Source: Candidatus Yanofskyibacteriota bacterium (lineage in GTDB: Bacteria; Patescibacteriota; Minisyncoccia; 2-02-FULL-40-12; GWA2-44-9). From it: DNA of 44,100 nucleotides. Shown here piece by piece: positions 19,235-22,716 of the stretch. A program made the translations under genes and the position numbers. Under the pieces are notes generated by a model. It was not told where the DNA came from. It worked only from the letters and a program-made list of their open reading frames with translations, and ran no database searches. Each line of letters opens with the position of its first letter. The stretch's first letter is position 1. The stretch is taken from positions 3,923-48,022 of the forward strand of contig JAHFKT010000001.1 in the NCBI GenBank assembly GCA_023245235.1, written 5' to 3'.

Positions 19235-19501
19235 ATATATTTGGCGCAACGATAGCATATTTGTCAAAGCTTCACAATGTACGCACTGATGTCGAGCCGG
19301 ATAAATTTTTTGCATCAGATTTTTTCAGTTATCCACTTTTTTTGTATCAAAATTATTTTTTCTGTTCTAAAATTAAAACAGTTGAATTTGATTTTGTAGC
19401 GGTCGGTCGAACTGCTACGCTAAAAATAAAATAAGGAGGAATGGAGATGATGTGGTCATCGTCAACGATGAGCGTATCGTCTCCCAAACTATAAAAAGAA
19501 C

Positions 19502-19594
19502 ATGGCAAAGAAGAAAAAGGCCGCATCAAAGAAGAAGGCCAAGAAAGTTGTGAAGAGGAAAGCCAAGAAGGGCGGAAAGAAAAAGAGGCGCTAA
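19502..19594 (+). CDS. 30-aa Lys/Arg-rich peptide (histone-H1-tail-like composition)
   Basis: ATG at 19502: MAKKKKAASKKKAKKVVKRKAKKGGKKKRR*, directly followed by its own terminator. Below the ORF-track cutoff. Confidence 0.55.
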   Translation: MAKKKKAASKKKAKKVVKRKAKKGGKKKRR

Positions 19595-19601
19595 CCGGCT
19601 G

Positions 19602-19632
19602 AAAAGGCCCGCGACAGTCGCGGGCCTTTTAT
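19602..19632 (+). terminator. Rho-independent terminator
   Basis: AAAGGCCCGCGA-cag-TCGCGGGCCTTTT followed by ATTTTT. Confidence 0.85.
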
Positions 19633-19662
19633 TTTTCCGAATGATCGGTATATAATACAACC

Positions 19663-20040: not shown

Positions 20041-22716
20041 ATGTCGTTTTTGGCTAACATATTCGGGAGCGCTAACCAGCGCTATGTCGATTCGCTGCGG
20101 CCGCTCATTGACCGCATCAACCAGCTCGAAAAGGAATTCGAGCTATTTTCTCTTGAGCAGCTGAAAGCTAAGACAGCGGAATTTAAGGTGCGCCTTGAAA
20201 AAGGAGAAACCCTCGATGATATATTGCCCGAAGCGTTTGCCGCAGTCCGCGAGGCATCGAGGCGGACGCTCGGCCAGCGGCATTACGACGTTCAGCTTAT
20301 CGGCGGTATCGTACTTCACCAGGGCAAGATCGCCGAGATGCGTACCGGAGAGGGCAAGACGCTCGTCGCCACACTGCCGGTATATTTGAATGCTCTTGAG
20401 GGAAAGGGCGTGCATGTGATCACCGTTAACGATTACCTTGCCCGCCGTGATGCGACCTGGATGGGCCAGGTCTATAACGCCCTCGGCGTGACCGTCGGCT
20501 GTATTAACCACGAGACCAGCTATGTTTACGACGAAACCCACACCGATAAGGCCGAAGACAAAGAACGCGATACGGAAGGCAGCTTCAAAGTGGTCCATGA
20601 ATTCCTGAAACCGGTCTCACGCCGTGACGCGTATCACGCCGATATCACCTACGGCACGAATAACGAGTACGGCTTCGACTATCTGCGGGATAATATGTCG
20701 TACCTGCCGATACAGATGTCCCAGCGTTCAGCGGACGAGGGCGGCCACCACTTTGCGATCGTCGACGAAGTCGATTCTATTCTGATCGACGAGGCCCGCA
20801 CTCCGCTTATCATCTCCGCTCCCGATGAGGATTCGGGAGAGCTGTATCAGACATTCTCCCGCATCGTTCCCAAACTGAAAGAGGACGAGGATTATAATGT
20901 CGACATCAAAGAGAAAACCGTCGCCATTACCGAGGCCGGTATCGAGAAAGTCGAGAAGATACTGGACATGAAGAATATCTATGACGAGGGCGGCATGCGC
21001 TATGTCCATCATCTTGAGCAGGCATTGAAGGCGAATGTCATCTTTCATCGCGACCGTGACTATGTGGTCAAAGACGGCGAGATCATTATCGTCGACGAAT
21101 TTACCGGCCGTCTGATGCCCGGCCGCCGGTGGTCCGAAGGTCTCCATCAGTCGGTCGAGGCCAAGGAAGGCGTTAAGGTCCAGAAAGAATCCCGCACACT
21201 GGCCACGGTCACGTTCCAGAACTATTTCCGTCTATACAAAAAGATCGGCGGCATGACCGGAACCGCCCAGACTTCGGCCGAAGAGTTCCATAAGGTCTAT
21301 ACGATCGATGTCGTTACGGTTCCCACCAATAAACCCGCCATCCGCAAAGACCTGCCCGACCGTATTTATAAGAACGAAGCCGGAAAATTCCGCGCCATCG
21401 TTAGAGAGATCAAAGAACGGCATGAAACAGGCCAGCCGGTCCTGGTCGGTACCGTCTCGATCGAGAAGAACGAGTATCTTTCAATGTTGCTTCAGCGCGA
21501 AGGGGTGCCGCATACGCTTTTGAATGCCAAGAACCACGAGAAGGAAGCCGAAATAATCGCCCAGGCCGGCCGGGCAAGCGGCGTGACGCTGGCGACCAAT
21601 ATCGCCGGCCGGGGCGTCGACATTATCCTGGGCGGCAATCCGCCCGAGCCGGCATCGCACGAGAAAGCCAAAGAATTCGGCGGATTGCACGTGCTCGGCA
21701 CAGAACGTCATGAAGCCCGGCGTATCGATGACCAGCTCCGGGGCCGCGCCGGACGTCAGGGCGATCCCGGCTCCTCTCAATTCTTTGTTTCGACCGAGGA
21801 CGAACTGGTCCGGCGCTTCGGCGGGGACAGCCTGAAGAACATCATGGAGCGGCTTGGCGTCGGCGAGGACGATGTCATCGAGAACCGGTTCGTGTCCAAT
21901 GCCATTCAGCAGGCCCAGGGCCGGATCGAAGGCCACAACTTTGATATCCGCAAATACGTTCTTGAATACGACGACGTCATGAACAAGCACCGGGAAGCGG
22001 TCTACGGCCTGCGCCGCCAGATCCTGTTCGCCGATTCCGCGAAGCCGATCATCGAGGAATATCTCAAGGAGTACGTCCGGAACCTCATCGCTTTTCATAC
22101 TTCGGGCCATGAATGGGACCTGAAAGAGATACAGCAGTCGCTTGAAGCTCTGGCCGGGCCGAACGGCGAGCTGGAATCGAAGTTGAAAGAGGGAAGGAGT
22201 CCCGAGGATATCATCGAGTACATTGACGGCTATCTGAACGAGCGCTATGCAAAGCGCGAACAGGAGATGGGCGAAGCCGAGATGCGCAAGCTTGAGAGAC
22301 TGGTCATGCTCCGCACCATCGACGAGCTGTGGGTTGACCATATTTCGGCCATGGAGTTCCTGCGCGATTCGGTCCGTTTGCGCGCATTCGGCCAGCGTGA
22401 TCCGCTGGCGGAATACAAAGTGGAGGGCCAGAAGATGTTCGGTCAGCTGATGCAGGCCATTAAGGCCCAGGTGGCCGACGTGATCTTCAAGGTAAATATG
22501 ATACACCAACCCCGGGCCGTGAACGTGAAAGAGGTCCGCCAGGATATCTCCGGTGAAAGTCCGATGGAGAGAGAATCAAATAACCGGCCTACGGTTGCAT
22601 CGGAGGAAGAAAAGATAGGGCGCAATGACCCGTGCCCGTGCGGTTCCGGCAAAAAATACAAAAAGTGCGGGCTCCTCAACACTCCCGAGCATCAGCGTCT
22701 CATGTCGGCCAGTTAA
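20041..22716 (+). CDS. secA: Preprotein translocase ATPase SecA
   Basis: AEMRTGEGKTLVATLPVYLNAL, HVITVNDYLARRDATWMG, VDEVDSILIDEARTPLIIS, GRAGRQGDPGSSQFFVS, C-terminal zinc motif CPCGSGKKYKKC. Confidence 0.99.
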   Translation: MSFLANIFGSANQRYVDSLRPLIDRINQLEKEFELFSLEQLKAKTAEFKVRLEKGETLDDILPEAFAAVREASRRTLGQRHYDVQLIGGIVLHQGKIAEMRTGEGKTLVATLPVYLNALEGKGVHVITVNDYLARRDATWMGQVYNALGVTVGCINHETSYVYDETHTDKAEDKERDTEGSFKVVHEFLKPVSRRDAYHADITYGTNNEYGFDYLRDNMSYLPIQMSQRSADEGGHHFAIVDEVDSILIDEARTPLIISAPDEDSGELYQTFSRIVPKLKEDEDYNVDIKEKTVAITEAGIEKVEKILDMKNIYDEGGMRYVHHLEQALKANVIFHRDRDYVVKDGEIIIVDEFTGRLMPGRRWSEGLHQSVEAKEGVKVQKESRTLATVTFQNYFRLYKKIGGMTGTAQTSAEEFHKVYTIDVVTVPTNKPAIRKDLPDRIYKNEAGKFRAIVREIKERHETGQPVLVGTVSIEKNEYLSMLLQREGVPHTLLNAKNHEKEAEIIAQAGRASGVTLATNIAGRGVDIILGGNPPEPASHEKAKEFGGLHVLGTERHEARRIDDQLRGRAGRQGDPGSSQFFVSTEDELVRRFGGDSLKNIMERLGVGEDDVIENRFVSNAIQQAQGRIEGHNFDIRKYVLEYDDVMNKHREAVYGLRRQILFADSAKPIIEEYLKEYVRNLIAFHTSGHEWDLKEIQQSLEALAGPNGELESKLKEGRSPEDIIEYIDGYLNERYAKREQEMGEAEMRKLERLVMLRTIDELWVDHISAMEFLRDSVRLRAFGQRDPLAEYKVEGQKMFGQLMQAIKAQVADVIFKVNMIHQPRAVNVKEVRQDISGESPMERESNNRPTVASEEEKIGRNDPCPCGSGKKYKKCGLLNTPEHQRLMSAS

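Follow-up and report, generated by a model that had tools for sequence, protein, structure and literature searches.

The histone H1-like bacterial nucleoproteins, namely Hc1/HC2 of the chlamydiae and the Lys-rich tails of HU-like proteins, are low-complexity polycations rich in lysine, alanine and arginine, and the product of the gene described here has the same character. It differs from them in being only 10–43 residues long, in having no globular part and no significant profile match, and its gene is equipped with a DnaA-box-like promoter and a hairpin leader of its own. The small ribosomal proteins bTHX, bS22, bL37 and bL38 resemble it in size, in charge, in the ease with which annotation misses them and in the tie to HPF-bound ribosomes (PMC10618245), whereas the Lys-rich product has no match in solved structures, is much looser in length and is encoded by a gene that also occurs outside translation operons. 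The role of DnaA as a transcription factor is established, and the consensus of its box is TTATCCACA (PMC8203912). Promoters under its control, that of dnaA itself and others, carry this box beside the promoter (PMC8203912), as the Lys-rich gene does; here a single oriented box, a predicted DnaA site whose last base is T in the window's order, precedes a gene for a polycation. A split ribosome-binding site is proven in phage T4 genes 25 and 38, where an RNA hairpin lies between the start codon and a distant Shine-Dalgarno sequence (PMC3014915), and the leader of the Lys-rich gene is arranged in a similar way.

The locus lies immediately upstream of hpf in the window (the whole stretch of DNA that was analysed, 44,100 nucleotides). 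From its conservation across the class we read it, with a probability of about 0.7, as an unannotated gene that is transcribed independently, whose product, a polycationic microprotein, very probably binds nucleic acid, and which is controlled both at transcription and at the level of the RNA. The gene is new to Pfam, NCBIfam and Rfam, in which no model matched. ORFs of 10–43 codons with such a compositional bias fall below annotation limits, so that a class-conserved gene can go unlisted. Almost nothing is known of gene regulation in these bacteria, and the module offers a clear and testable connection of a DnaA-type box and a new RNA hairpin with a polycation.

Anatomy of the locus and the Lys/Arg-rich microprotein

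The first-pass annotation had described a self-contained unit, a Lys/Arg-rich micro-ORF with a structured leader 5′ of hpf. This is supported, and the microprotein is conserved; hairpin 1, the AAGGAGG, hairpin 2, the 30-codon ORF and the terminator are all present where they had been placed (Table 1). The extent given for the unit, 19366–19632, holds for these elements and fails at its 5′ limit, since the box at 19329–19337 extends the unit upstream of 19366. This box and the GGTC(G/A) of the hairpin-1 loop are the two conserved elements that the first-pass annotation had missed. As their conservation indicates, the elements of the locus are far beyond chance. The full Shine-Dalgarno stretch is AAGGAGGA (19433–19440). 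Transcription probably starts near 19380; the −10 was called from its consensus, the promoter scanner having found no sigma-70 pair at the locus. The divergent neighbour of the unit is a sugar transferase gene, and the hpf–secA order is found again in relatives.

Table 1. Features of the Lys-rich locus and its surroundings (positions in the window)
Feature	Position	Strand	Remarks
DnaA-box-like element TTATCCACT	19329-19337	+	30 bp 5′ of the −10; TTATCCACA in most of the class
−10-like TAAAAT	19368-19373	+	consensus only; placement after the box recurs in relatives
Hairpin 1, GTAGCGGT...ACTGCTAC	19396-19418	+	heptaloop CGGUCGA; GGTCG at 19405-19409
Shine-Dalgarno AAGGAGG	19433-19439	+	5′ of hairpin 2; 62 nt from the ATG of the Lys-rich ORF
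Hairpin 2	19443-19484	+	18 pairs; separates Shine-Dalgarno and start codon; covers most of the supposed mini-ORF
Supposed mini-ORF, MMWSSSTMSVSSPKL and stop	19447-19494	+	judged not a gene; frame not kept in relatives
Lys/Arg-rich microprotein ORF, 30 aa, MAKKKKAASKKKAKKVVKRKAKKGGKKKRR and stop	19502-19594	+	class-wide family, 10-43 aa
Intrinsic terminator	19602-19638	+	13 bp stem 19602-19630, then T-rich tail
hpf, ribosome hibernation factor, PF02482	19663-19989	+	downstream neighbour
secA	20041-22716	+	downstream neighbour

A strict ORF test (ATG start, 10–45 aa, K+R of 50% or more, no more than one acidic residue) was applied to the regions upstream of hpf in 93 genomes of the class. It finds a Lys/Arg ORF on the hpf strand in 27 of the 93, in many families, and on the opposite strand in 0 of the 93; the ORFs are of the MAKK...KKRR type, with 10 to 43 residues. 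About two thirds of the hpf upstream regions in the class have neither box nor ORF, and in those genomes the gene may sit elsewhere.

The 943 residues of 42 members comprise 482 K, 115 R and 164 A, with one D and no E; 25 members start with MAKK, and the last residue is K or R in 36. Arginine is encoded by CGN at 48 of its 115 positions, in a tract that is purine elsewhere. Compared across the class, the Lys-rich composition, the near-absence of acidic residues, the MAKK starts, the basic ends and the CGN codons together show that the ORF is selected as a protein. Rapid divergence of the frame is not seen: the length varies, but the start, the composition and the basic C-terminus are kept class-wide. 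Terminators follow 23 of the 42 members by a strict script, and more by eye.

The module is also found away from hpf (G022–G024, G045 and several places of the box-led search described below), which makes it a unit of its own. In genus g13 (L004, L006 and L007; G022–G024) the gene has been relocated from hpf with the box, hairpin 1, the Shine-Dalgarno sequence, hairpin 2 and the terminator all retained, so that the module moves as one piece. Outside the class, the pattern GGTCG...MAKK gave no clear family member among 30 places inspected, with some RRM genes instead.

Low-complexity proteins defeat profile searches. The best Pfam lead is HC2 (PF07382), reached by one 43-aa member (E = 0.14, 12.6 bits against a cut-off of 40); the protein of the window has no match to this model. 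Four members gave 0 families in NCBIfam, and two members compared with the ribosomal chains of solved structures gave 0 matches at E up to 10, a test that low-complexity sequence limits. At the gathering score no Rfam model falls on the leader element in the window or in 16 related loci. Our literature search found no paper on the Lys-rich micro-gene or on DnaA boxes in these bacteria.

The DnaA-box-like element

At the promoter the box has the form TTATCCAC(A/T) in the class. The forward strand carries TTATNCAC within 300 nt upstream of 33 of the 42 Lys-rich genes, where about one would be expected, and the reverse strand carries it once; the −10 follows the box at about 22–24, 28–30 or 41 nt. 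Upstream of hpf, the box is present in 22 of the 27 genomes that have the ORF and in 2 of the 66 that do not (P = 1.6e-14; this and the other P values ignore shared ancestry and are inflated by genome relatedness). Within the 107-kb contig of the window, GTTATCCACT occurs a single time, at the Lys-rich locus.

Searching 238 genomes for the box followed at 125–185 nt by a MAK(K/R) start, with hpf, ORF length and hairpin all left free, returns 24 distinct places; the reversed pattern returns 2. Lys-rich micro-ORFs are found at 21 of the 24, and in 20 of these 21 a GGTC[GA] lies between box and start, though it was absent from the query; several of the places are new and do not adjoin hpf. At the level of sequence, the box, the GGTC hairpin leader and the Lys/Arg ORF are shown to form one module, beside hpf or elsewhere.

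In the window's order the box reads TTATCCACT, with the last base, T, off the DnaA consensus. The DNA-binding domain IV of DnaA (PF08299) is encoded in all 14 genomes tested, among them G000. The features of a DnaA-regulated promoter that we find are a box at the promoter and its conservation with the gene; binding itself is predicted. A protein reading TTATCCACA would set transcription of the gene, and the cell's own DnaA would be the obvious candidate. At the dnaA locus of G025 (L265), TTATACACA and TTATCCACT lie 11 bp apart beside dnaA (positions 337 and 348); this hints that the family of that genome accepts TTATCCACT as a variant of the DnaA box.

An origin of replication at the Lys-rich locus was considered and rejected. 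There is a single box, the locus lies 0.3–0.4 genome from dnaA in single-contig genomes [dnaA at 551 kb and the Lys-rich locus at 182 kb of 837 kb in G099; dnaA at 485 and hpf at 851 of 923 kb in G155], and the GC skew is flat. Because the dnaA locus is elsewhere and the skew is flat, the box is not simply oriC. Outside the window, a stretch of G000:C2 at about 78000–84000 (L198, L199) has a GC content of 0.38–0.43 against 0.53 and a positive skew, and may be foreign DNA.

Role of the product

The first-pass annotation had proposed a nucleoid- or ribosome-binding peptide controlled by a leader peptide. Nucleic-acid binding remains the most natural reading of the product, and the control part does not hold (see below). 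The product would act as a free polycation, neutralising the charge of DNA or of rRNA. Adjacency to hpf points to a role at the ribosome, whereas the DnaA-type box and a composition like that of H1 point to one in the nucleoid, and we lean slightly towards the nucleoid, with a role like that of a histone H1 tail coupled to replication through DnaA. A more specific proposal, in which a DnaA-responsive micro-gene with a new RNA leader makes, class-wide, a histone-tail-like polycation linking the replication state to nucleoid compaction (or to ribosome silencing), is tentative and rather doubtful. Replacement of HU, a known nucleoid protein, by the Lys-rich product was rejected; HU (PF00216) is found both in genomes that have the gene and in genomes that lack it, and the two show no correlation.

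The alternative that survives best is a ribosomal or ribosome-associated peptide specific to the lineage, of the kind of bTHX, bS22, bL37 and bL38, placed by hpf for a part in hibernation or assembly and with a leader that serves as an autoregulatory or a shared element of translational control. Tiny basic ribosomal proteins missed by annotation are known, and bS22 and bL38 came to light only through cryo-EM of a hibernating ribosome that contained HPF (PMC10618245). The hpf neighbourhood is seen in many families, but the Lys-rich gene also stands away from hpf with a promoter and terminator of its own, and it carries a DnaA-box-like element, which translation genes usually lack. In its favour, RRM RNA-binding genes of these genomes also have leaders in which a similar GGTC precedes the 3′ stem; against it, 10 to 43 residues is a very loose length for a ribosomal protein and the solved ribosomal chains have no sequence match. 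We regard a ribosomal peptide as a real possibility, at odds clearly below even.

Hairpins of the leader and a candidate split ribosome-binding site

Hairpin 1 folds with −10.8 kcal/mol (z −2.3) and carries GGTC(G/A) on the 3′ side of the loop; in 37 of the 42 members this motif precedes the ATG by 28–140 nt. Stems formed from a member's own arms reach 7.6 bp, those from swapped arms 5.3 bp (P = 1e-6), and 34 different 3′ strands are represented; by this comparison the pairing is kept class-wide while the stem sequence changes. In G000 the covariance model of hairpin 1 (R1) finds only the Lys-rich locus, bar a weak match on the opposite strand. That other genes share hairpin 1 was rejected, the second-best R1 matches in relatives looking like chance or another gene. 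The GGUCG hairpin may be bound by a protein or an RNA, which would tune stability or translation.

In the same genomes RRM RNA-binding genes have a conserved structured leader of their own, GTAGGt-TTCTCg...gaGAnAGGTCgtCCTAC, in which GGTC directly precedes the 3′ strand (L134, at G000:C24 near 27012, and L131–L160; also L302, L304 and L315 in other genomes); eight of its loci were scanned with no Rfam match. Like the Lys-rich leader it is long and structured, and in both a hairpin has GGTC(G) directly ahead of its 3′ strand. It is unlike that leader in its stem (GTAGG...CCTAC with TTCTC/GAGA), in the gene it precedes and in the variants GGTCT and GGTCA, which occur at the place of the Lys-rich GGTCG; one or the other is the form of the RRM motif in families f3 and f4. 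The RRM leader and the Lys-rich gene may share a trans-acting partner. The RRM gene L315 (G210), the only one returned by the box search, combines TTATCCACA with a GGTCA leader.

Hairpin 2, GGAGATGATGTG-g-TCATCG-TCAA-CGATGA-g-CGTATCGTCTCC, folds with −25.7 kcal/mol (z = −6.4), and 0 of 200 shuffles are as stable. It had been noted at first as TCATCG-tcaa-CGATGA, which is present but is the core of a larger structure of 18 pairs spanning 19443–19484. In loci gathered by hpf synteny and by pattern, the same leader anatomy is found in families f1, f3 and f4 of the order, with hairpin 1, an A/T-rich stretch, (A)AGGAGG, hairpin 2, ATGGCAAAGA... and the terminator. The arms of hairpin 2 co-vary (GGAGA/TCTCC, GCGAT/ATCGC, GTGAT/ATCAC, CGAGA/TCTCG), and own arms score 22.3 against 14.9 for arms swapped between genomes (P = 3.5e-4). 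Outside the window's order hairpin 2 is absent and the ORF stays.

Stable, covarying hairpins followed by a terminator, in a short transcript framed by promoter and terminator, would also suit a regulatory RNA of ~250 nt in which the Lys-rich ORF is secondary, or a purine tract acting at the RNA level. We consider this improbable: the ATG-(Ala/Val/Lys/Pro)-basic start, the in-frame stop directly after the basic C-terminus, the CGN arginine codons and the near-absence of acidic residues in the 42 members need selection at the protein level, and the ORF persists outside the order where hairpin 2 is lost. The purely non-coding small RNA that had been suggested is likewise unlikely, since the arginine positions use CGN codons in an otherwise purine tract.

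The frame of the supposed mini-ORF has 15 codons in G000 and a stop after 2 codons in G023; in G005, G008 and G025 the ATG after the Shine-Dalgarno sequence runs in frame into the Lys-rich ORF, and G022 and family f3 have no ATG there. Because the frame is not conserved and the pairing of the arms is, the stretch is better read as a hairpin than as a leader peptide. Control of the Lys-rich ORF by translation of MMWSSSTMSVSSPKL, switching it on or off, would suit the good Shine-Dalgarno spacing to the ATG at 19447 and, in the window, the stop 7 nt before the next ATG, but with arms constrained by pairing and a frame that in relatives is fused or lacks a start it is very improbable.

The leader of the microprotein gene instead has the features of a split ribosome-binding site of the T4 gene 25 type, a distant Shine-Dalgarno sequence and a conserved hairpin between it and the start, as predicted from sequence. 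Shine-Dalgarno and AUG are 52–71 nt apart in the linear RNA and about 14–20 nt once hairpin 2 is folded (62 and about 20 nt in the window), against 22–27 and 5–11 nt in T4; the folded spacing exceeds the usual optimum, which counts against this reading. In the window's order the upstream AAGGAGG would be the loading site of ribosomes, and folding of hairpin 2 would take out 42 nt and bring the Shine-Dalgarno sequence closer to the AUG. To our knowledge, split ribosome-binding sites are otherwise known mainly from T4, and the Lys-rich leader would offer a cellular, comparative case. One related locus, L039 (G016), is without a Shine-Dalgarno sequence and has a long helix, CCCGTTAGAAATTT/AAATTTCTAACGGG, that ends right at the ATG.
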